From Hydractinia symbiolongicarpus (Eukaryota > Cnidaria > Hydrozoa > Anthoathecata > Hydractiniidae), in assembly GCF_029227915.1 (NCBI RefSeq), contig NC_079876.1:32655828-32719827 (forward strand): 64,000 bases of DNA. The letters are read 5' to 3'. The translations under genes and the position numbers were made by a program. Each line of letters opens with the position of its first letter. Positions within the stretch are counted from its first letter, which is position 1. The notes beneath the pieces were generated by a model. That model was not told the DNA's origin. It saw only the letters and a list, made by a program, of their open reading frames with translations, and ran no database searches. Positions 1-64,000 of this stretch are shown piece after piece.

Positions 1-577
1 ATAAAACGAATTCTTTTTTTCGTGACATTACCTTAGGTGCATATTTCCGTGCAGTAGAGAAAAAGAAGAATTGACGTTTGCGAAGAAAACAAGCCTTCAA
101 TACCCCTGCCGAAAGACCCTGTAGAGAGGAAATTGTTGAAAACTCAATTAAATACTCACGAATGACATAATTTTGTTTTACTCTTTATTTCATGTAATTT
201 GTACATATTATTTATTTAATAAATCATCTATCTCATAAATATTTAATACTTCGGAACATATCAACAAGGCATTCTAAACACGAATTATGTCACCACGAGG
301 CATCCTATAATTCTTTGGTCCTTGTGACTTCAATTATGCAGCCATTATGAATTTCAAAGTTCGAGAAGAAGCGTGAGCATGATAAAGCTGCATGAAGTGA
401 GGTAGCTCAATATTTGAAAGTTTATTTACAATTATTTGCTGTACTAAACTTTTCTGTAAAAAACGACTGTTATTTTCTTAAATACTTATATCAATAGAAA
501 TTAATTAGGTAGAATCATTAAAACGTCAGAGGGAACCTTTAAGCTGTATAGCTTGATTTAGATGTCAGCTTAAAGCT
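1..577. other. AT-rich DNA without recognisable gene
   Basis: I see no coding exon, RNA gene or repeat boundary that I can support here. The stretch is AT-rich and leads up to the left end of a TIR element at 580. Confidence 0.5.
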
Positions 578-579
578 TA

Positions 580-2260
580 CCTCCCACTTCAAAAAAAGTT
601 CATCTTATTCTGTTTATATTATGTTGAGAATTTGTAATTTAACATTTATTAAGTAAAATTTGGAATAATAAAGCTAATCTAAAGCCACATTTTCTTGTGT
701 TTACAGCATGCTTCTTTTCGAAAGCCGCTATTTTTTGATAATTTTTTTTTGGATTAAACCCAGTTTGACGTCATCTCCCGGATGGCAAAAAAGGCCCCCT
801 GAACATGTTGCCGCAAAACAATAACTCAGAGAAAAGGAAGAAGAGTAAATTGTTGCAACTAAGATTAATTTTGTTAATAATTATAAAATGTGTTTTTGTG
901 CTATGGCTTGTTGTAATAAGAATAATAGAAGTAGCGCTGGAAAGCATTTCTTTGCCAGTCTTCCAACAAGCAAGAAAAAACGAGCTGCGTGTACTCATTA
1001 ACAGAGTCGAGTTTTCACTAGAATCACTAGAATGTTTTGATCAACGTTGGCAAAAAAGGCTTAGGCAATTCTAAATCTCTGTCTAGTCTTCGCATTAGGC
1101 CATATGAAAATTCTGGTTAGGTGCTCGCTCTTCTACGTTGCGTCTAAGACTTTTCTATTATATTGTGGTACACTAGGCAGGGGATTTAAAGGATTTTATT
1201 TTGTCCTGCGCACGCATGTTGATTCTTCTTTCTTTTTTTTCTTTTTTGCTTTCTTATATTAATCTATTTTAATTTATTTTTTGTGTCGCGTTTCACTCTC
1301 ATACGCTATAGGTCCTGGGATCGAGGTTGCTTGATTTGTTATTATAATAAGCCATGGGTTGTGTTTTTGCACCCGTTCTTTCTATGTTTACTTCCGCTTG
1401 GTCGTGATTATTAACGCTGCCAATAGTCTAGTCATAAAATGAAGTTTTCTGCAAATCTTCTAAATTAAAAACGCTTTCAGAGTGTCTAAATCTTCTAACC
1501 AATACAAACTCTTAGGGATCACAGCGCGGCATTTTTCGAAAGAGTAAAATAAAATGTCGCCCGCCATGGTTTGCTCTGATAGCCCTAAATAGCTTCTTTT
1601 TCACTTTAAAATATACTTTCCGGCGCCGCGACCCGTCTCCTGTGGGCATTGAAGTCTCTACACAAGTCAGAAAGAGCCAATCTCGTTCTGAGAGCATCGG
1701 AATAGCTAAAAAGGCCACGGTTCACTACTAAGCTATTGCTTCAACTTCCATTCTCATCCTCATATCAGCTTTCCCAGCTAGAGTCTGATTCACTGTGAGG
1801 TTAGACTTTTCACTGGCTGAAACTTCAAAACTAAGAAAGCCCCCACAAATTTTTCACGGGAACACGGGAAGAGTTTTAAAAAGGGAAGTAAAAAACAAGT
1901 GTTTACTTATCTTCAGTATATACTTGTTACAAACTCATCTTCAGTACCCGTTAGAAATGTTGAAAAACAACAACCGCTTTGTCATATGTAAAACTACTAT
2001 GTATATAAAAACATGGGCCAACGGCAGAGTCAGCGAAAATATCATCCGGGAGTTGACGTCACAAGCCCTCCCACGAAGGAATTCATTTAAAATCGGGACA
2101 CAAGATGGCGACTGGCACGAAGCTTCTTCTTCAGCTAATATTTTACAACTTCAACAACGAATATCTTGCGAACAAATCAAAATAAGTACAAAAGAATTTT
2201 TTTTCGTTATTAGTACAATATTTTGAGTTGATTTTCGAATACTTTTTTTAAAGTGGGAGG
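580..2260. mobile_element. 1.7-kb DNA element with TIRs CCTCCCACTT and TA flanks
   Basis: The left end reads CCTCCCACTTCAAAAAAAGT at 580, and the reverse complement of the right end (2240-2260) reads CCTCCCACTTTAAAAAAAGT, about 19 of 21 positions matching. Both ends abut the dinucleotide TA, as expected for a Tc1/mariner-type duplication. No transposase is readable inside, so it is either non-autonomous or decayed. A short THAP-like fragment lies at 903. The TIRs are seen directly; the superfamily is inference. Confidence 0.45.
903..1001 (+). pseudogene. possible THAP-type zinc-finger remnant
   Basis: The frame at 903 begins MACC, followed about 20 residues later by HFFASLP, then a lysine-rich stretch and a stop. 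THAP domains start with a C-x2/4-C pair and have an FHxFP-like segment about 20 residues on, so the fragment is reminiscent of the first third of a THAP domain. The other Cys/His ligands and the AVPTIF-like end are not visible, so this is a weak call. It lies inside the TIR element, and THAP domains are common in animal DNA transposases. Confidence 0.2.
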
Positions 2261-2577
2261 TAATCTTTAATTAGGATGTATGGTACAGTCTAATTAGGCG
2301 TTTTACAGCTTAGTTAAGATGTACAAAACTTTCATCGCCTAAAACACATATTATACTGAATTTTGGCATCTATCTAATTGAAAAAATCCGATATTTACGT
2401 GCATATAAACATCTCCAATACATTAGTTTATTTCGTAGCACCCGGGAGATCCGCTAAATTTAAAGTTATAAAAATATTCGCTTAAATAGGATGTATCACT
2501 AGGGTGTATCACGTATCACTTATTACCCCAGTCAAAAAGGAAAAAACAAAAAACTAAAAAAACAAAAAAATAAAAAT

Positions 2578-14619: not shown

Positions 14620-16410
14620 TGAAAGTTACTATTAAAGACAAAGACCTTACCTTTTTTGAACTTGTATATCCTTCTTTCGTATTTTTAATCTCGTCTGAAT
14701 TTGATTCATCTTATAGTTTCCTAATATGTGCCGAATACCTTGACAGCATTTTTTTTATTTCTTTGCCCTCGCTTGAGTTGAAACATTTTTGGTGTGCTAT
14801 CAAGGTAGACTCTGTTGGTGCAATAATGCTTGAAATTGAGATCTCATCTCTTTGGTTTTCGTCAAGTTCAATGCCCGGTACATAGTTAGGGTCATCGTTA
14901 ACTATCCTTTGAACTCGTTGAACAGCTGTTTTTCTTCAATTGGTGGAAAATATCTTCGCTTGGTCCATCTTCTTCTGGGGAGTTATTAAAGAATACTGCA
15001 AGATGCGATTTCTTTTTCAAAGTATGGAAGTACTGTACCTTCCTGCACTTGTGTCTATTGAGGACTTATACCTATACCACTTATACCAGTCGTAACTGAA
15101 TGTGAAAGTAGGCCAGCAACAGGCTCAATATCATTTCTTTGATTGTTATGAATCAGAGTTGTTACTGATTTTCTTATCACAGTAGTGCTGATGTTGCCTT
15201 TAGTACCATCGTTACCGCTGTAGACACCGCTTCTGACCCATATAGAATTTATCTGCCTACTAATATAAATATATTATCAACATCAGATTTGATTTGTGAG
15301 CTTACGCAAATCACAAAAATGTCAAGTAAATGTGTTTCGTGTTTTAACAAGCATATAACCGCAGCCCCATAAATGATTTTTGTCTTGTGATCTTTTACTC
15401 GAATGATGACATTCTGGCCACTTTCGTCAGGTTTCTTTCGACTGTATTCGCGTTTGTATGGGCATTTTCAAGAACAATACTTGTCATCAAATAATCTCAC
15501 ATAGGCTCGTTGTTTTCTTGATATACGCTCACTGAGCAACGTTGTTGCGTTTCTTGCCATATCACTTTGTTGGAAACAATCCACTTGCTCAGGTGTTACC
15601 AATCTCTTTAAGATCTCCTCTTCCTTTTCATTTCTGACTTGCGATCAACTTATTGTAGCTTCTTCTCCAGACGTACAATCGCAGTTTCACACATATAAAA
15701 TCCTCTGGGGTGAAGTCTCCTATTGTCACACCCTCAAGGAAGAATTGTGTTCCTTTATATGAGCATATTCTTCAGAGGAGCAAAACCTCTAGAATTTATA
15801 TTTTAAGACTTAACTGGTCGAGTTTATCATTGTGCGTGCACTTTGTAATTTTCATTCTTCTGCATACTCAAAAAAAGATATTAATGATGAAAGATAGTGC
15901 TTTGACGTTGCTGGCTTTCTTTAATTTTATCAAAGTAATTTCGGAAGAAGTCGTCTCCAACCTTGATTCTATCAAGCAGACTTTATTTACAGAATTTTTT
16001 TTTCTACCATCAAGGGAAACCATGTGATTCAGAAAATGTGCCATGATTTTCCGTACGGTATTTTCTTGTTAGCCTCCAATCTAGTCATTTCTGAAATCAA
16101 TCAATTCTTTTTTTGGGGAATTACTTTTTTCATTTCCCGCACTACAATGGAACTACAAGTTTACCTCTTATTCGTTTAGAATTTCAGAATTCGCATCATT
16201 TAAATTTTGACTTTCTGCTGCTTTGTAGGATCTGGATTTTTTTAGCATCCCATAATATTCAATGCCAACTGGAATTTTATAATATTGTTTCAAGTGTCTG
16301 TGGAGCTTGCATTACATTTGTTGCCAGGGCAGTAGCGTTATAGTCAGCATACACCTTGACATTCTCATTTGCAGTTACTTTGCGTCGAGTAGGTTTCTTT
16401 TTCTTCCAGA
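14620..16410 (-). pseudogene. Crypton-like tyrosine-recombinase element, decayed
   Basis: Several minus-strand frames recall tyrosine-recombinase (YR) proteins of animal Crypton-like elements. Near 15600 is TPEQVDCFQQSDMARNA; near 15400, VKDHKTKIIYGAAVI; near 15190, TTVIRKSVTTLIH followed by GLLSHSVTTG, which resembles the R...H-x-x-R/H catalytic region of YRs. Further upstream (16270-16410) VWKKKKPTRRKVTANENVKV is open. Stops and frame changes occur throughout, and a LINE tail fragment sits in the middle. The RAG1-N transposon at 16426 interrupts its upstream side. The family call is from motif recall only; the catalytic Arg/His/Tyr set is not fully resolved. Confidence 0.4.
15721..15872 (+). 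repeat. USP-LINE 3' tail fragment inserted in the recombinase remnant
   Basis: GGAAGAATTGTGTTCCTTTA, then GAGGAGCAAAACCTCTAGAA, and an end at CATTGTGCGTGCACTTTGTA nearly match 2880-2996 letter for letter. It ends in the same CATTCTT-like sequence, so this is the true LINE 3' end. Confidence 0.65.
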
Positions 16411-16421
16411 CATAAGGCGTT

Positions 16422-16425
16422 CTCA
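16422..16425. other. left 4-bp target-site duplication CTCA
   Basis: CTCA directly precedes the CACGG terminus and is repeated directly after the right terminus at 21748-21751. Four bases can match by chance, but frame continuity of the flanks supports it. Confidence 0.55.
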
Positions 16426-16476
16426 CACGGTCATTCAAGTTCGCCTAGAAGCGGGAAATTCAGTCTGCGCATGCGC
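16426..16476 (+). repeat. left TIR of the RAG1-N transposon
   Basis: It starts CACGGTCATTC; the conserved inner box TTCAGTCTGCGCATG begins at 16459, 33 bases from the end. CGGGAAA precedes the box. Compared with the right TIR it holds about 11 additional bases between terminus and box. Confidence 0.7.
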
Positions 16477-16899
16477 TAATTTTGAAATTTCAAAACAACC
16501 GCAAATAAGGCGTGAAAATGACGTCATCATATTTGCATCCCTGCACAAACAACCCATTTCAGGAGAAACGGCATTACATATAAATAAACCAAACGTTTTG
16601 CCATGGTATATGAGGCCAGGGGAAGTTAGAAACATAATCTTTATCGCGCTTGCATTTGTTGTGGTTACAAAAAGCCCCTGGGAAGTAGCAACTTCTAGTG
16701 AAAAAAATTTCACAAATTCTCAGCAAAAAATCACCCAAACAAAAGTTTTCCGGCCAACAAACTAAATATTTTTAGAAAAACCGCACATTCTACTTTTATT
16801 TAGTGAAACTTTTGAGGTGCTTACATATTTTGCAAAGAGATATTTCAACATATAGTAGACCTATGATTTCACCAACCTAGCTACCGTTTACAAACAAAT

Positions 16900-19800
16900 A
16901 TGGCTGCTGATCACGTCTTGAACCTAGCCAAACTTTGCAGAATTTGTGGGTTTCTTCTGTCAAAGGATAAAAGAAACAATTTTAATGTTCTTAACGAAAA
17001 AGTTAAAGAAAAAATTCAGAAGCACTTATTTATAGACGTGTGTAACGACAAAGCAGAGCTACACCCCGCACAAATCTGTAATAAATGTTATGCTAGACTT
17101 GTTCAAAATGACAAACGCAAAAGTACAAGCAAGCATGAGTTCTTTGCTTGGAAAAAACATACTGATTTAAACTGCACTGTGTGCGAACATGTCTGTGTTA
17201 AACGAAAAGGAGGTCGGCCTAAAAAAAGACTTTCTACAGGTCGGTATTGCACTACCACAAATGCATACTGGACGAAGACTGTATCTTCAAAAATTTACGA
17301 AAAGCTAGATGAAACAAATGAACTTTACAATGAAAACTTTAAAAAGGAGAACAATCCACATTTAGATCTGTGCTTATGTCCCTCCTGTAAATCTATAATG
17401 AAAGCACCAGTTTTATTAGCCACATGCCAGCATTCTCTCTGTTACAGATGTTTCATACCAACAGTTGAAGGTCAAACTTTAGAAAGTGCAAAATGTCCAA
17501 TATGTTATACACCTGTTTCTCCTGACTTTGTCACACCTTCTAAAACAATAACGCAACTTATAAAAAACTTGCACCCTCTCATTGATCAGAAGCCAGAAAC
17601 AGCAAAACCACGTTTACTAAGCGAGGTTTATAGTATTGACAAGGAAAGCAAAATCCCCAGAGATTTCGAAGAAGCAGCTCTTCATGTTATAAAAACCAAA
17701 ATGGCTAAATCTACGCTACCTAATAGTGGCATAGAATTTATGACTGGTGGTTCAAGAGTAAGAACAATTATTTTTTTTTTTTTTTTTTTTTTGTTTAGTC
17801 AGCATAATATATTGGCTTAAATTTGGATAAATTTTTGTACAGTCTTCATATAAAATATATACATTCAAATATATCTACACATAATTTAACTTCTCATAAT
17901 TTAATATCTATATATACATGATATAATATCTACACATATATAATTCAATATCTGCACATAACTTAATATCTCACATAATTCAATATATGCACATAACAAC
18001 TTATTTAAAAACTTATATTTTCTTGCAGCCCCTGGTCTTGACTTCAACACCAAGAGCTATAAAGTCTTCAGCAGTTTGCAGAAAAACTATAGAGAACAGA
18101 AACAAGTTTATTCTTGGCCAATTGAAACTTTCAACATGTGGTACAACCGATTCTCTAATTAATCAAACCTCAAAATTGGTAAAATCATTTGCAGAACATG
18201 AAAAGGAGGAAATTTTGAACAAAGCCAACATTGCAGCTCCTATCCTTTCAGCCGAAACCATGGTCACAATGAAAGTTGATCTTGGAATCCCATGGGAAAA
18301 ATTAAAGAAAATGGGCAGGTCAATTTTTTTCTATTTTTGTTTCTTTGTGTTGTGTATTTATCCAAAAAGAAACACAGATACCTAATAGTGTTGGTACTAA
18401 GTATATATAACAAAAAATTTCAAGTGCAAAATTCTTTTACAATTTCCTAAAATTATAAGTGGCTGAAATCATTAAATATTAACATAGAATCTCAGTCAAA
18501 ACAAAGAAGTCTCGCAAAAAAGTGGACAGGAGAAGACATTAATGTTGAAAACATGCCGTTTCAATTTCCTGTTAAAGAGGGGAATGGAAAATTTTTATTG
18601 AATGAAGCACCATGGGGATATGTTGTAGATGTTCCAACACACATTCTTAAGTATCTTGATGCACTCAATGAGTACGTTTGTGCATAGAAATAGTACATGT
18701 TTTAAAAAAGCTTATCTACAAAGTTTTTTAAAATTATTGCATCTTAAAAATATAAAAATGTGAAATGATCTCAAATTAAATTATTTTTTTAGCTACTCAC
18801 AATTTGTTGAAAAGAAAATCCACAACAATGAGATACATGTGAAAATTGGGGGAGATCACGGTGGAAAGTCATTTAAAATGTCTTATCAGTGTTGCAACAC
18901 TCTACATCCTAATAGTAAAGAAAATACTGTTGTCTTCAGCCTCTTTGAGGCTAAAGACTATCGCATAAATTTAAAAATAGGATTATCCAGATTTAAAGAA
19001 CAGATAGATTTGCTTCAAACTCTTGATTGGCAGTAAGCATGAAATTTTATATAGCAAATTATAATATATAAACAAAACCCAGACAAAACTGTACCCAGTA
19101 ATAATTTAATGTATATAGTCATAATAGCTAACAATGTTGTTAAAAATTGTTGACAGGTTAAATATTTACAATTTCTCAGTTCACAATAAACTTTTTTTTT
19201 ATATATATATCAGTAGAAATTCATAAATGCCTAAGAAAGACAATTTTTTTCAATGTTTTTTTTATTCATAGGGAAAGGAAAATCAGAGTATTCATGTTTG
19301 GGGATTATGAATTCCTATGTGCAATGTATGGGATCACTGGAGCTAATGGTAACAATTAAATAATAATTTTCTGACATTTAGTTTAATTTCTGCCACTGTA
19401 AAACTAAATATTTTTCACTATGTCTTTTTTCCTCTATAGGACGTCACTGCTGCCTGTTTTGTGAAATTACTTCACAAAACATGAAAATTCCAACTTCGGT
19501 GCGGGGAAAAGCCAAACAACGAACTTTGGCAACATTAAAAGCAGATTATGAGAGCTTCAAAAATGCTGGTGGTAATATAAAATTTGCCAAAAACTACAAC
19601 AATGTCATTGATGAAGTTATGTTCAACATCCCTCTTGATCAGGTTATTATTTTAAATGATCAATTAAAATTCTTTGCACTGCAGAATTAAACACAAGACA
19701 TAAACTGAATAATATATTTTTAGGTTTCACTTCCCTCACTCCACATATCTTTGGGCACGTATTTAAAATTTTTTAACATGTTCGAAGATAGATGTCATCT

Positions 19801-21108
19801 GTTAGACGTTAAAATAGCTGGTAGCATGGCTATCAATGACAAGGTGATAGATGAAGCAGGCTTCAAGTCGTATGTAGATAGTCAAATAAAAATACGTGAT
19901 CTGGAATACCTTGTTCAGGATTATAAGGAAAAAATTGACTTGGTTCATGAAGCACTTGCCACCAATGTTTTGAAGAGCCCTGAAAAGGAAGAAGAATTAC
20001 GTAACATTTTTGAACCAAGATTGGAGCATTTAGAAATAAAATTAAAGGAAAAGGTATAAATATTTCTACATTTATTAACTCATTTATTAAAGTAAGAATT
20101 GTATCACTTAGTCACACTTTTATTCCTAAACTTAGTTGAAACAGATTGATGATTTAGAGAAGATAAGTATATTGGAGAAAAATACTGGCCCATGCGTCAA
20201 ACAATTGGACGAAAAGTTGAAAGAATTGGGAGTAGAACGTCAAGCATATCATGGTAAATCATTTGTGGGCAATGATGTCCACAAAATGCTTAAGGTAAAG
20301 TTTAACACTAGTAATATCATTAATGCATATTATATGTGCTCCTTAGAGGAGGTGAATCACAAATTGTAGGTTCCAGTAATTTTTGTTTTAATATCAAAAT
20401 TACTTCTATATAGGTACAGAATATTCTAAAGCTGTGTAACAGTATTCCGATTCTGGTAGTGTCCTTGGGTTTTGGTGCTACAGATGTTCATATGGAGGCA
20501 ATAGAGATATGCAATAACTTTAAGCTGCTCTTCCAGCACTATTCGAAGTGTCATCAGTTGATGAATTCAACACTCTACTTTGATGACAACAAACTTCGGG
20601 AAATAGGTATAATGCTTTGTTTACATTATTTTTTTTTTTAACATAGCTATAGACAAAACATCAAGCTTTCTCAACTAAAGAATATACACACATATATAAA
20701 AGAACTGAGGTATTATATAGCCACACCATACATATTTTGATATTTCTGTTGCACACTTTAATGTTCTTATTTTTAAACTATATTACAGATACAGCTATCA
20801 AAACACTGATGGCCTATTTAAGATTAACCTTTCCCAATGCATCAGTAACTCCAAAGTTACATATGTTGGAGGATCACGTGGTTGATTTCATCAGGAAATG
20901 GAAAATCGGACTGGGGATGTACGGAGAACAAGGGGCAGAAAGTATCCACCCAGTATTTAATAATTTAAGGGCAGTGTATGCAGCAGTGAGACCACATACT
21001 GCCAGACTAAAGGCTATGTTAGAGCATCATCATTTAAAAGTAAAACCTGTGGCCAAAAGTCTCACACCACAAGTAAAAAAAAGAAAGTTTAAGAACTCTG
21101 AAGAATAA
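16900..21108 (+). CDS. RAG1-N/RING transposase-like protein, about ten exons
   Basis: Probable exons: 16900-17757, 18029-18318, ~18460-18671, 18793-19032, 19272-19348, 19440-19642, 19724-20053, 20136-20294, 20414-20606, 20789-21108; nearly all have GT-AG borders with matching phase, giving about 960 residues. Exon 1 resembles the vertebrate RAG1 N-terminus: KLCRICG, then FIDVCNDKAELHPAQICNKC, then NCTVCEHVCVKRKGGRPKK; a RING follows (LCPSCKS...ATCQHSLCYRC...CPICYTP). The C-terminal part has KIGGDHGGKSFK, VFMFGDYEFLC, RHCCLFCEI (a CxxC-like pair), LHISLGTYLKFF, AYHGKSFVGND and GEQGAESIH; Asp of GGDHGG and Glu of GAESIH are candidate catalytic acids, by loose analogy with RAG1 EGNESGN. The exon 2/3 junction is off by one base with the visible sites, perhaps a small deletion. 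No in-frame stop is seen. Confidence 0.75.
17758..18028 (+). other. intron 1 of the RAG1-N gene
   Basis: The intron starts GTAAGA, holds a T-run of about 23 bases, and ends TTTTCTTGCAG. The exon before it ends in the residues TGGSR, and the same residues occur at the same intron border in the remnant at 33002, so the border is conserved between families. Confidence 0.7.
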
Positions 21109-21701
21109 ACATATAGTTAGTTTAGACATTTTTCTTTTTTAATTTTATATATATTTTAGCTAGTTAAGTTTCGGAATAGCAGAGTAAATAGTAAATCAAG
21201 GTACTTACTAGGCAGTGCGAGTGTTGTGAGTTTCTTTTCCATCATGTCGTCTCAAAGTTGACCAGTCCGTGAAATACTGCTCCATTATTATTGCAGAGTT
21301 TCAGAGCTTATTTTTTTTAAAAAAAATATGTAAGCAGCAAACTGTTGTTTTTCACAGCTTATTCGAACATAAATCTAACTGTATATGTCTTTGAATGTTC
21401 CATAAAAACTTTAGAATATGATAATTTAATGATTATCGTAAGATGTACAAAACTTGGAAGAAAAAAAGTTGCACAACAAAAAACGGTGTTATTTAAAAAC
21501 ACCTTGCTCCATGCTTCGTTTTTTCACCGCAAGCGTCTTTCTGAACACACGATAAATCGTTTTGCATCAAAGAATAAATATTTTTTTATTTATGAAAGAT
21601 GCTGTTGTTCAAAATCATTCAAGGGTAACATCTGAAAACATAATTAGCTAGCGCTCCGCAACATGCGCTACCATCTTGAAATTTTGCTGAAAAAGCGAAA
21701 G

Positions 21702-21747
21702 TCCGCCGCCCATGCGCAGACTGAACTTCCCCGCCCGAATGAACGTG
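21702..21747 (-). repeat. right TIR of the RAG1-N transposon
   Basis: Read inward on the minus strand it starts CACGTTCATTC, then GGGCGGGGAAG, and the inner box TTCAGTCTGCGCATG begins at 21725, 22 bases from the end. The box is identical to the left one. Confidence 0.7.
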
Positions 21748-21751
21748 CTCA

Positions 21752-32987: not shown

Positions 32988-33362
32988 TCATGTTAGAAAA
33001 TTTTTTGTAACGAAAAATAGTAAAATTACCCTGGATCCACCCGTCTTGAACTCGATACTTTGGTTTGGAAGATTTGATTGTGCCATTTTATGTTTTATTA
33101 CAGTAAGGTCAGTGTCTTCTGACTCTCTTGAAATCTTTTCTCTTTCGTTGATTGGAAACGTTTGGTTGGGGCATAGTCTGTCACATTTCTTTTCACAGCT
33201 TAGCTGTAAGCAGCTAACCATATCTTCATGTGAACGAAAAGGCAAGACCATTCCCACTTTAACTACGCGGAAGCAGCTGGGACATATTGTGTGGGACTGT
33301 TTTTTGCCCTCAAAACGTTTTACCACGAAAATTAAGCAGAAACTCTGCTGAAATAATAACAC
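32988..33362 (-). pseudogene. second RAG1-N/RING-type transposon fragment
   Basis: The minus-strand frame ends with IKHKMAQSNLPNQSIEF then KTGGSR at a GT donor (near 33026). This matches IKTKMAKSTLPNSGIEF and MTGGSR at the exon 1 border of the gene at 16900. Upstream, ICPSCFRVV and scattered Cys/His resemble its RING. The divergence shows a different family. No RAG1-like N-terminus and no downstream exons are visible on the lower-coordinate side, where the Helitron 5' end lies within 500 bp. It is a fragment of one exon. Confidence 0.6.
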
Positions 33363-33369
33363 TAGCCTG

Positions 33370-34245
33370 TGTTAAATGTTATTGCACAGTTTGCATACAC
33401 AAAGACTTAAGTAAGCATTCAATGTTTGATTCAGGAATAACCATCCAACACTTATATTAGGATAGTGGTCTAAAAAACTTAGGAAACACGTGTTATGCAA
33501 GCTCAATTTTGCAATGTTTTTATACCCTTCCAAAAGTTAAAGAATCCATTTCTGTCAGCGATATAACCTCCAAGTTAGTCAAATCATTTGTGGGTGTTCT
33601 TCAAATTTAGCTGTTCGAAGAGTCAAGTTGACCCCTTCCATTCTTTGCGTGCTCTGAAAAATCATATCTTAATCGCAAATTGAAGCGTGTTTAATATCTT
33701 TGCTCCAAATGACGTCCCCGAGGTTCTTGATTATCTTCTACATGGTCTGTGTGTCTGTCATTGGATTTTCCATTTCCCAAGTCTTTGTAGTATTGCCGTC
33801 AAGGCATCCACCACTTGCGATACATGTAATAATACCAGCTCCTCAGAAGTTATAGATCCATGCACCCTACAATCATTTTCAGATAATTTCTTTGAAAGCA
33901 AGGAGTTGTCAGACACCAATGGCTACTTTTGACATGTTTTTACCTCTTATAAAACCGCTCTAGTTGAAAAAGAGGTTGTGTTGCGCGGTTCTCATCTTAT
34001 TTTACAATTAAAACGTTTCGCAAGTAGCAACCACTTGTGTCGAAAATTACCTCCCGTATTACGGCTTACCCTTGTACCCTTTCCATACCTTTAACTTTAG
34101 ATGGAGAAGTGAAATGTCGTAATCAATTTCAATTAGGTGCTATTAACCGTTGCTACAACTTAAGTATTGACCATCACATAACTATAGCCTTTGACCAAAA
34201 TAATCACAGGTGAATACATTGCAACGATAGAGGGGTAATTTTCTG
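33370..34245 (+). pseudogene. USP-LINE subfamily 2, deubiquitinase remnant (copy D)
   Basis: The Cys box reads GLKNLGNTCYASSILQCFY near 33470. Further on is VKASTTCDTCNNTSSSE (first Zn pair), a LILQLKRFASS segment near 34000, and IHCNDRGVI near 34220 (Asp box). The His box is eroded (LSIDHHITIA). Stops and shifts break the frame. It is closer to copy E at 38540 than to copies A, B, C and F, so two USP subfamilies coexist. Its end abuts the 5'-truncated copy C. Confidence 0.6.
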
Positions 34246-61444: not shown

Positions 61445-64000
61445 TGTTCTGATAAAGCATTAAAGTAAAGAAACTAGTACTGGATGACTAACAAAACACA
61501 ACGTAAGCAAATGTATAAACGAACACAGAAGAACAAGTTTTGTTGTGTAGAAGAAGACAGTTACACCTCGCGTTAAGACTGTTATAATGACATTTAAATA
61601 AAACAGAAATGTTACGAGGAGTTGTTTCATTTAAAAATATATTAAACAAAAACTGTCCCGATTGTTAAACTGAAAAAAAATAAAACAAAAGGAAAAAAAT
61701 AAAAATAACAAACAAGAATGTTAAATGAACGAGCGAACGAGCGAATTATCCAACAAAAATAGCTTTTGAAAATCATTGTTAACAAAGATAATGTGTACTG
61801 TGATTAAATGAGACCTCAGATGTTTTTTGTTTCTAAAAAACCTATCTACCGCATTCTTCTTGATTAAGATTCAAGTCATGCATAGAACGTTTCTTAAAAA
61901 CGTGTCTGTTTAAAGAAGTGATATGGAAATTTCAATTTTTCTCATTTTCATATTAATGCTAAAATGTACTTATAAAAGAATATGTATAGTTGAATTCCTA
62001 TTATAAATCATTACAGCTTCAGATGCTGCATTAAAAGTGTCCCGGACTTGACAATTGTCAGGCAATGTAATCGACAATGAATTCTCAATACACACATGTA
62101 ATTTTTCCAAGTCCAAATCCAAGTAGCGTAATAATAATAAAGATTATAATAATAATAAGTTTTCCACTATTTATAATAAAGTTCCGAAAATAAATTTTTT
62201 AATGTCTTTTTTTTTCTTTCTTCCAATTTTTTAATAACGCCCATGAAAACTAAGTGGTTTTTCAAAACAAATAACTCTTTGAACAATTTTGGATACCCCT
62301 GCATGGCATTTAAGAAATCTAAAAATTTTAAGCGTCACTTAACTAGTCAAGGGGCACCTTCCTCCCACCAATTACGTGAACAAGTCTTTTAGGCCCTGTA
62401 CTAAATAGTCTGATCCAGACCACTTGAGTAAAATGCGAGTGACACATTCAAATACCGCCTTTCAAGTTTATAATACAAAAGTCAACTGCGCTATCAAATT
62501 TATGATATTTTCAGTTGCTACTAGATCGTTGAGAGTTATTAATCCAGTAATAACAGGGCAAACTTTTTTCTTTGAAAGTTCACAATCAATATTATCATCA
62601 TTTTTAATGTTTTGTATCAGCAGTGATAACTCATTTAAAAAACTGCACCGGTGATCTTTCTCTGTTCCATCCATCGTTCAGTATATAATGCAAATTTTAA
62701 TCTGAAAATGGTAAAACTATTATACATTACATTAAATAAACACAGGTTTCATTTGTTGCTGTTAATGTCCTTTAGGTAATAACGTGTCAAGAGCAAGATT
62801 GACCAAGCACTTGAGAAGGGGGCAGGTAGTGTTAACTCATTATATAATCTTAAATTTTATTAACATACAGCTAAGAAGAATAACTAGGCCTGAGAATTAC
62901 TACGTACCTCTGAATTACTTATTGTATCGGCGAAAAGGGGTTAACGAGCCGTAAAGAAGCAGTTTTCAGAAACGAAAGTTTATCATGGAGCGGTGTGCGA
63001 TGTAAGCAAGGCTTAACCAGCTAAACTCTTTTCTGACAGTTGGGGGGTATTTTAGTCAATATTTGGATCTATACTTGTAACAATAACTCTGAAATGAGAG
63101 CATACACAAAATCACAACAAACAGTTTTTCTCTTCTCTCTTTTTCAAAACTCCATTCATGCTAACACACATGCTTATGAATTAACAGTTTGCAAAATATC
63201 CTTAGTGTCACCTGTATACAAAATCTGGTTGCTCTCTTTTCCTCTTGAAACAATCCGATTATAGCGATTAAGTGAAAAAAAAGAAGTTCTTACTCTGGAA
63301 TTACCAATCATAAATTCCGTGCCACTATTAGGTAAAGTATATTTAGCCATTTTGGTTTTTATAGCAAAAGCTGTTTCTTCAAAATTCTAGGTGATTTTAC
63401 TTTCATTGTTAATGTCAGTAAAGGGGTGTAAATAATTTATTTGTTGTGTTATTGTGTCAGAAGACAAAATCAGGACATGTTTCACCTTCAACTGTTTTTA
63501 TGAAACATCTGTAACAGAAAGAGTGCTGGCATTTGATTAGCTAATGCTATCATTTTAAATATACAGGAGGAAAATGAGTACAGATCCAAATTTGAATTGT
63601 TCTCCTTTTCTTAACTTTGTTTCTGCGGCTTATCAACTTTTCGTATATTTTGTAAGATGCATACTTAGTCCAGTATGCAAAATTCATTGAAATAGGTGCA
63701 ACGAATTGATTTTAAAGGCGCGACAAAACCATATTATTTTGTTATTTTATCTTATTTCTCTTAAACATTGAATTTGAAAAAATCAGGGAAGCCTAGACCA
63801 ATACGCCAAGTATCAAATAACTGGCGAAATGTTTACAACAATAACACCGCCCACGATCCAGGTCCATTATCCAGCTTTTTCTTGATTAATATAGTGCCAG
63901 TTATACACCGAGTATGTATTCTCGATTGACATATAACATATAAAAATTCCTGTGCTGGAGGGACTGAACTCTTTTGTATCATATCAATAATGGTTATGCA
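61445..64000. other. AT-rich DNA without supported genes
   Basis: GAACGAGCGAACGAGCGAA near 61727 is a small tandem repeat. A minus-strand frame at 62468-62674 (68 residues, listed separately) is the only one that looks mildly protein-like. No TIR or RNA gene is seen. Confidence 0.4.
62468..62674 (-). CDS. hypothetical 68-residue ORF
   Basis: The frame begins MDGTEKDHRCSFLNELSLL and includes KKKVCPVITGLITLND and ENIINLIAQLTF. The composition is plausible for a helical protein or an exon, but no motif, signal peptide or splice context supports it, and I do not recognise it. It may be chance in AT-rich DNA. Confidence 0.15.
   Translation of the reverse strand: MDGTEKDHRCSFLNELSLLIQNIKNDDNIDCELSKKKVCPVITGLITLNDLVATENIINLIAQLTFVL

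Follow-up and report, generated by a model that had tools for sequence, protein, structure and literature searches.

A stretch of 64,000 nucleotides from the hydrozoan Hydractinia symbiolongicarpus, referred to below as the window, contains a gene for a protein with an N-terminus resembling that of RAG1, the vertebrate antibody-gene recombinase. The N-terminal third of RAG1 is conserved and poorly understood. The locus raises the question whether the gene belongs to a mobile element and, if so, of which kind. The sequence-only reading had proposed a RAG1-type N-terminus, a RING and a transposase inside one element bounded by terminal inverted repeats (TIRs). This proposal was correct, and the element is very probably a Chapaev cut-and-paste DNA transposon of the CMC group, of the kind with Chapa and RING, built for its own movement.

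Element boundaries and genomic copies

The whole element has a length of 5322 bp (16426..21747, + strand), as delimited by the TIRs, a CTCA duplication and boundaries common to genome copies. The target site duplication is located at 16422..16425 on the 5' side and at 21748..21751 on the 3' side. Inverted-arm pairing and alignment placed the 5' terminal and subterminal inverted repeat, which starts with CACGGTCATTC, at 16426..16476 (+ strand) and the 3' repeat, ending with GAATGAACGTG, at 21708..21747 (- strand). The arms 16453-16476 and 21708-21731 showed 92% pairing; the terminal motif is CAC...GTG with CTCA flanking each end. Within the window alone, ends and duplication are not enough to exceed chance. 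When CAC...GTG pairs were sought that lie 0.3-12 kb from each other, are accompanied by a 4-bp repeat and agree in no fewer than 10 of 12 terminal bases, three were obtained, the element's own among them.

The boundaries were settled by genome copies having the same start and end positions. Matches to the first 474 bp begin exactly at 16426 in 28 of 31 cases (window copy and its twin counted), and of the 10 matches to the terminal 638 bp, 4 stop exactly at 21747 and three more lie at most 2 bases off. The inverted termini and the CTCA duplication claimed earlier proved exact to the base, and the locus is not single-copy; sister families are multi-copy as well. Four-base-pair duplications were observed at three of the four independent insertions with both ends in hand, namely CTCA in the window, TTAG at L069 and CCCA at L070; at L026 a matching duplication was absent (AATT/AAAG). 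This count left out L071, of which only the 3' end was recognised, and L021, L022, L024, L025, L027 and L028, for which the second end was not found. CAC...GTG was present at both ends of the window copy, L069 and L070, and the 5' end also in L065-L068.

The sequence-only reading had suggested that activity may be recent. A near-identical twin, L019 (C2:35.64 Mb), agrees with the window copy at every one of 769 bases of the left flank and likewise in the duplication; on the right, the first 29 bases agree and are followed by a small insertion (ungapped count 349/1175). Three tested pieces, from bases 500 to 63900 of the window, matched at one place in inverted order; in the assembly, the twin is part of an inverted duplication spanning these pieces. 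The common left flank and duplication therefore indicate one insertion copied along with its surroundings, and L019 was rejected as a second independent insertion proving recent activity. A close independent full-length sister of the window copy was not found. A search for an empty paralogous site with the 1726-bp left flank yielded two full-length matches, both adjoining the element, and thus no empty paralogue among the 40 of 344 candidates scored. Sister families of the same design comprise several near-identical copies each at different sites. Of family B, 21 matches in the genome share a first-exon frame of 347 aa, and the two copies compared were 99.1-99.97% identical across aligned pieces. 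Judged from these copies, recent activity of sister families B and C appears supported; the earlier suggestion thus holds for them and not for the window copy.

Gene structure and catalytic region

Only one gene was recognised within the element. Its ten exons form a frame of 960 aa with the terminal stop only. All nine donors are GT and eight of nine acceptors AG; the exception is the intron 2 acceptor at 18457-18458, a position at which the twin L019 and the relative L071 both show a normal AG. Because of this damaged acceptor, the window copy is probably unable to make the full protein. Exon 1 (16900..17757; all exons on the + strand) encodes the Chapa domain and a C3HC4 RING (residues 160-202), as identified by PF12560 (5.3e-9), PF00097 (7.9e-6) and correspondence with RAG1. 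Exon 2 (18029..18318) is followed by exon 3 (18459..18671), which lies directly behind the damaged acceptor. Exon 4 (18793..19032) contains the end of DUF1280 (7.5e-10) and the first conserved D (codon 18854-18856), exon 5 (19272..19348) the second conserved D (codon 19303-19305), and exon 6 (19440..19642) the C(2)C pair CLFC (codons 19451-19462). Exon 7 (19724..20053) encodes an inserted stretch whose second half is coiled-coil-like in appearance. Exon 8 (20136..20294) carries an RQAYHG motif with a conserved H (codon 20250-20252); exon 9 (20414..20606) precedes exon 10 (20789..21108), which includes H(4)H (codons 20860-20862 and 20875-20877), the candidate catalytic E (20926-20928 or 20938-20940) and the stop.

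An intact ten-exon frame and ends that do not exceed chance in the window would also suit a gene of the host that is flanked by repeats merely by chance, or a transposase domesticated for a host function. The exact 5' boundary common to the genome matches, the damaged acceptor of the window copy and the dispersed near-identical copies of the sister families render this explanation extremely improbable.

The signature residues of CMC transposases, D, D, C(2)C, H(4)H and E, occur in the C-terminal part of the protein. Conservation was determined for 16 aligned proteins, counting only rows with a residue and using L019 numbering. D480 was conserved in 14/14, D550, C569 and C572 in 16/16 each, H781 in 15/16, H884 in 15/15, and H889, E906 and E910 in 14/14 each; E906 or E910 is the candidate catalytic glutamate. 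C(2)C and H(3-4)H between the second D and the last E are described as marks of the wider group in PMC12730594. Relatives are present in Hydra, a crinoid, a sea cucumber and a sea urchin. Among 14 database relatives, PF12560 was matched in only three and PF00097 in only five (E <= 0.01); at least four (P0004, P0006, P0011 and P0012) lack an N-terminus in the alignment, and the full-length Hydra protein P0002 also gave no PF12560 match. DUF1280 (PF06918) was matched in 12 of these 14 and spans the first conserved D in L019; this Pfam family can be regarded as belonging to the catalytic region of Chapaev.

The termini, the duplication and the signature agree with published features of Chapaev, for which termini of the form CAC...GTG and duplications of 3 to 4 bp are given as hallmarks (PMC4079192); further defining features found here are DDE with C(2)C/H(3-4)H and a Chapa domain followed by a RING. 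Chapaev transposons with Chapa and RING were described by Kapitonov and Koonin (2015; PMC4411706). In two subgroups of Chapaev a RING follows Chapa. It is on these published features that the assignment to Chapaev was based.

Alternatively, the element could be a RAG-like transposon (RAGL, ProtoRAG or TransibSU) and be directly related to RAG1 along its entire length, since the zinc region of its N-terminus and its RING both match RAG1; RAGL elements are reported from cnidarians (PMC7204232). Duplications here comprise 4 bp, as against the 5 bp given for Transib and RAG (PMC8355894). Furthermore, the profile of the database relatives (A2, from which P0015 with E 1.1e-4 and 16% coverage was left out) reached RAG1 in the PDB through the RING only, among the best 60 of 66 matches; within these, the catalytic part gave no sequence match to the solved RAG1 core, although such a search can miss a distant relation. 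Genome searches with RAG1 core (PF12940) and RAG2 (PF03089) yielded no match; the control genomes were equally empty, so absence of both from the genome is not proven by this result. Taken together, a RAG-like transposon is very unlikely.

The RAG1-like N-terminus

The name Chapa is used here for the region matching PF12560 and RAG1. For profile searches 15 related N-termini were aligned (A3); a single genome contributes 13 of 15 rows to A3 and likewise to A4. The A3 profile found RAG1 residues 102-349 as top match in the PDB (E 8.8e-20), which bears out the proposed kinship of exon 1 with the RAG1 N-terminal domain. In exon 1, the match to RAG1_imp_bd (PF12560) reached 36.5 bits at a curated cut-off of 23.3, and all 15 N-termini of A3 matched this family at E <= 0.001.

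A merely generic similarity of zinc fingers and RINGs might be suspected because exon 1, searched as a single sequence against the PDB, found ordinary E3 ligase RINGs (best RBBP6, 1.2e-5), with RAG1 absent among the best 60 of 63 matches at E <= 1. When two N-termini were used as single-sequence protein queries, none of the 501 and 398 candidates proved to be a relative at E <= 1; this says little, as even the Hydra relatives were missed. A pre-RING profile, from which the RING was excluded, matched RAG1 at 4e-13 and 1.2e-10, with the next match at 0.12, and the PF12560 match of exon 1 covers residues 5-156, outside the RING. Additionally, nine Cys, His and Trp positions of Chapa (C13, C16, H55, C60, C63, W84, H87, C92 and C95) align in order with RAG1 in these alignments drawn mostly from one genome; the RAG1 pairs C110/C113, C175/C178 and C210/C213 correspond to C13/C16, C60/C63 and C92/C95. 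Generic similarity can hardly be credited as the only source of the likeness.

The RAG1 central non-core domain was reported to bind two zinc ions, to be mostly nuclear and monomeric, and to bind DNA in a zinc-dependent manner; mutants of the same three cysteine pairs were degraded during purification (PMC3124419). The proposal that the N-terminal domains of RAG1 derive from such Chapaev transposases was already made in PMC4411706. The RAG1-Chapaev link is therefore a published one, and the families described here are additional examples from another hydrozoan.

The first zinc module of Chapa, and hence of the RAG1 central non-core domain, may possibly be a ZAD-type treble-clef domain, although we regard this as rather doubtful. 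ZADs are dimerisation domains. At E <= 1, zf-AD (PF07776) matched 13 of 15 pre-RING pieces with E 6e-5 to 0.2 and 12.4-23.6 bits, and none reached the curated cut-off of 28 bits; RAG1 itself matched zf-AD at 0.005. Model positions 1-59 of the ZAD of insect zinc-finger proteins align to Chapa residues about 10-70, whereas the scores stay under the cut-off and the RAG1 counterpart is monomeric (PMC3124419). In a six-frame genome scan, 12 of 26 sub-cut-off ZAD matches were Chapa loci, the window element included. The best non-RAG1 PDB match of the pre-RING profile was 7po9 (E 0.12), which scores 27.5 bits against zf-AD and as a query matched itself only. FYVE also matches Chapa weakly, which counts against the ZAD reading. 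A literature search combining ZAD terms with RAG1 found no publication linking the two among the matches listed. If the relation were true, the RAG1 N-terminus, Chapaev transposases and insect ZAD proteins would be of common ancestry, possibly spread by transposons.

Proposed transposition cycle and comparison with known systems

We propose that splicing of a ten-exon transcript would yield the message for a single transposase of about 960 aa. In this protein, the Chapa zinc domain may help in reaching the nucleus and contacting DNA, as was seen in tests of its RAG1 counterpart, the central non-core domain; the RING may dimerise and/or ubiquitylate, as in RAG1. Cleavage at the CAC ends and insertion of the element with a stagger of 4 bp would fall to a putative RNase H-like DDE core that includes the C(2)C and H(4)H zinc site. 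Sister families B and C could allow a direct test of the roles of Chapa and RING in transposition, apart from RAG1 core and RAG2.

Vertebrate RAG1 shares with the element the order of Cys, His, Trp and RING in its non-core part (central non-core domain plus RING/ZDD, residues 102-349). RAG1 differs in its Transib-type core, its RAG2 partner and a longer stretch between C113 and H170; the RING of the element taken alone resembles an ordinary RING. RAGL, ProtoRAG and TransibSU likewise carry a RAG1-type N-terminus in a transposon, whereas their 5-bp duplication, Transib-type core and RAG2L partner were not seen in the element. N-RAG-TP of Aplysia is similar by description in having a RAG1 N-terminal-like sequence in a transposon (PMC8355894). 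Chapaevs were reported from lancelet and sea anemone, and Hydra appears in tree legends of PMC4411706 and PMC4079192. From the Chapa+RING Chapaevs (Kapitonov and Jurka 2007, cited in PMC4411706), compared by published description, no difference of kind was found; they and the element have in common the order Chapa, RING and DDE, the CAC...GTG termini and the 4-bp duplication.

Boundaries and gene of the element

The element at window positions 16426-21747 reads CACGGTCATTC at its 5' end and GAATGAACGTG at its 3' end; CTCA flanks both, and the subterminal arms, at 16453-16476 and 21708-21731, are 92% complementary. Since a loose scan of the window returned three end pairs of such quality with a 4-bp repeat, the element's pair among them, the ends alone are little proof. 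The boundaries are established by genome copies, the ends in the window being insufficient on their own. The first 474 bp gave 31 genome matches (window copy and twin counted), 28 of which started exactly at query base 1, against the single-copy locus that would have refuted the sequence-only reading. The last 638 bp gave 10 genome matches; four reached the exact last base and three were at most two bases off.

Elsewhere in the window, a multi-copy repeat occupies positions 569-2270 (about 1.7 kb); it has inverted ends and is probably a non-autonomous DNA transposon. Its longest copies listed elsewhere match at 84-94% (40 of 509 candidates scored). Another repeat, about 125 bp long (15736-15863), recurs at 89-98% in at least about 40 further places (40 of 344 candidates scored).

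The gene model was predicted from DNA, with splice sites picked by eye from signals and homology. It comprises 960 codons over ten exons, the sole stop being terminal; all nine donors are GT and eight of nine acceptors AG. The model is supported by the twin, L019 (965 amino acids, identical exons apart from 15 extra bp in exon 1), and by L070 of sister family B (976 amino acids, nine exons modelled, 37% identity, 364/977 columns). The altered acceptor, that of intron 2, is a normal AG at the same place in L019 and in L071, another family A locus. Because the ten-exon frame is present and its sole non-AG acceptor is normal in these copies, the window copy is nearly intact with one true lesion; the earlier description of a near-intact element with one unclean exon junction was borne out.

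Copies and apparent recent movement

L019 has the same left flank and the same target duplication as the window element. Besides the element and its relatives, three pieces spanning 63 kb were compared: window 500-2500 (100%), 14700-16425 (100%) and 61500-63900 (92%) matched in inverted order at one place, C2:35597235-35660729 of the genome assembly, about 2.9 Mb off on the same chromosome. Either the segment was duplicated recently, or its second copy is an artefact of assembly. As left flank, target duplication and inverted-order pieces match, the window element and L019 are one insertion in a duplicated (or assembly-duplicated) segment; a second independent insertion was ruled out by the common flank and duplication. 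Differences between the two copies are the 15-bp insertion, the intron 2 acceptor, two indels in introns and a 3'-proximal palindrome (window 21508-21515), which is longer in L019.

Within family A, to which the element belongs, the remaining relatives are truncated or less similar: L071 matches at 91-94% in four long pieces, L024 at 77-88%, L023 at 86% and the 5' fragments L021, L022 and L025 at 96-98%; L026 is the element with an internal deletion. Five short relatives (L016, L017, L018, L027, L028), perhaps MITE-like elements, have 5' ends 78-79% identical to the first ~106 bp of the window element; their 3' ends were looked for and none was identified. L027 and L028 have about 350 bp in common.

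Sister family B differs: exon 1 gave 148 genome matches, at least 21 of which hold a 347-amino-acid frame, 19 of them having one score (136 of 226 candidates scored). Two of the 21 were compared; they showed 99.97, 99.95 and 99.1% identity in three pieces and carry separate duplications, TTAG and CCCA. Sister family C consists of four 5' parts (L065-L068, 2.56 kb) with 99.2-100% identity and different left flanks. These near-identical copies with separate duplications or different flanks suggest recent movement of RAG1-N-type transposons in the Hydractinia genome. The recent activity proposed earlier is thus supported for the sister families and not for the window copy, whose twin is the same insertion.

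The N-terminus, RAG1 and ZAD

Exon 1 matched PF12560 (RAG1_imp_bd) at residues 5-156 (5.3e-9, 36.5 bits, cut-off 23.3), followed by a RING at residues 160-202. A profile of 15 N-termini, 13 from the Hydractinia genome and two from database relatives, found full-length RAG1 as top PDB match (E 8.8e-20, residues 102-349) and ordinary RINGs next, from 6.9e-13, among the best 60 of 143 matches; the 1040-residue chains are presumably mouse RAG1. Both results confirmed the proposed RAG1-like N-terminus. With the RING removed, three PDB sequences passed 0.1, every one RAG1 (21wb, 4e-13; two full-length sequences, 1.2e-10). C13, C16, H55, C60, C63, W84, H87, C92 and C95, invariant in the alignment of the 15 N-termini, align with RAG1 C110, C113, H170, C175, C178, W203, H206, C210 and C213. 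As a single query against PDB, exon 1 found RINGs and no RAG1 among the best 60 of 63 matches, and two N-termini used as single-sequence queries gave no match at E <= 1 among 501 and 398 candidates. PF12560 was found at E <= 0.01 in just 3 of 14 database relatives, partly because several have no N-terminus; the Hydra protein P0002, though full-length, also had no match.

Two more decayed relatives of exon 1 lie on the minus strand at window 33030-33422 and 63294-63684. At 19 genome places, e.g. C6:18973156-18973467, a 171-amino-acid frame with 38% identity covers the N-terminal zinc domain, Chapa (4-117), and not the RING; this is perhaps a multi-copy Chapa-only transposon.

Furthermore, 13 of the 15 pre-RING pieces gave a zf-AD (ZAD, PF07776) match at E <= 1, nine of ten in one set (not L062) and four of five in the other (not the database relative P0007); RAG1 gave one too (E 0.0052). 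Each match runs along the first zinc module, under the 28-bit cut-off; with longer pieces, 3 of 15 reached E <= 0.001 (best 2e-6). A ZAD scan of the genome gave 126 matches, 26 under the cut-off, of which 12 are Chapa loci from the exon 1 search. These profile matches tentatively suggest that the first Chapa module, and thereby that of the RAG1 central non-core domain, might be of ZAD type, which we consider rather unlikely. PMC3124419 describes this RAG1 domain as a mostly nuclear monomer with two bound zinc ions and zinc-dependent DNA binding; the monomeric state speaks against a ZAD-like function. No paper linking ZAD with RAG1 was found among the matches listed in the open-access literature.

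The other 100 ZAD matches lie above the cut-off, two of them only with neighbours counted. Several, e.g. C2:19847366 and C2:23308615, have one common score and a 314- or 345-amino-acid frame, which would fit multi-copy elements that carry ZAD itself.

Transposase and comparison with Chapaev

A database search with the transposase, scoring the 7986 candidates with most words in common, gave 15 matches, seven from Hydra vulgaris and one each from Antedon, Holothuria and Lytechinus. The first part of the transposase region carries the Pfam label DUF1280 (12 of 14 relatives; L019 residues 363-534). Two D, a C(2)C pair, an H(4)H pair and two E are constant in 16 aligned proteins wherever the residue is present, and H781 is kept in 15 of the 16. 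The second D lies 19 residues from C(2)C and the histidine pair is H-x4-H, spacings equal to those of RAG1 D708-C727 and H937-H942. A profile of database relatives met RAG1 in PDB through the RING only, among the 60 of 66 matches listed, in a sequence search that can miss distant core kinship.

The features established here are element ends, a 4-bp stagger, one transposase gene and a conserved DDE-type signature. The Chapa domain of the transposase would serve the element's DNA as its RAG1 counterpart does, and the DDE core would cut at CAC. The RAG1 RING region (ZDD) dimerises (PMC3124419), and the RING shows ubiquitin ligase activity (PMC4411706).

The sequence-only reading was accurate and well read; its central claim is already published. 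In PMC4411706, Kapitonov and Koonin identify Chapa as part of the RAG1 N-terminus, describe Chapa followed by RING in two Chapaev subgroups, and report Chapaevs from lancelet and sea anemone, with Hydra in a tree legend. The Hydractinia genome paper (PMC10411563) does not use the word "Chapaev" in its main text. Interest lies in the sister families, which look active, and in the ZAD lead. The element has each Chapaev hallmark (PMC4079192) open to check here and is therefore a further member of this known kind.
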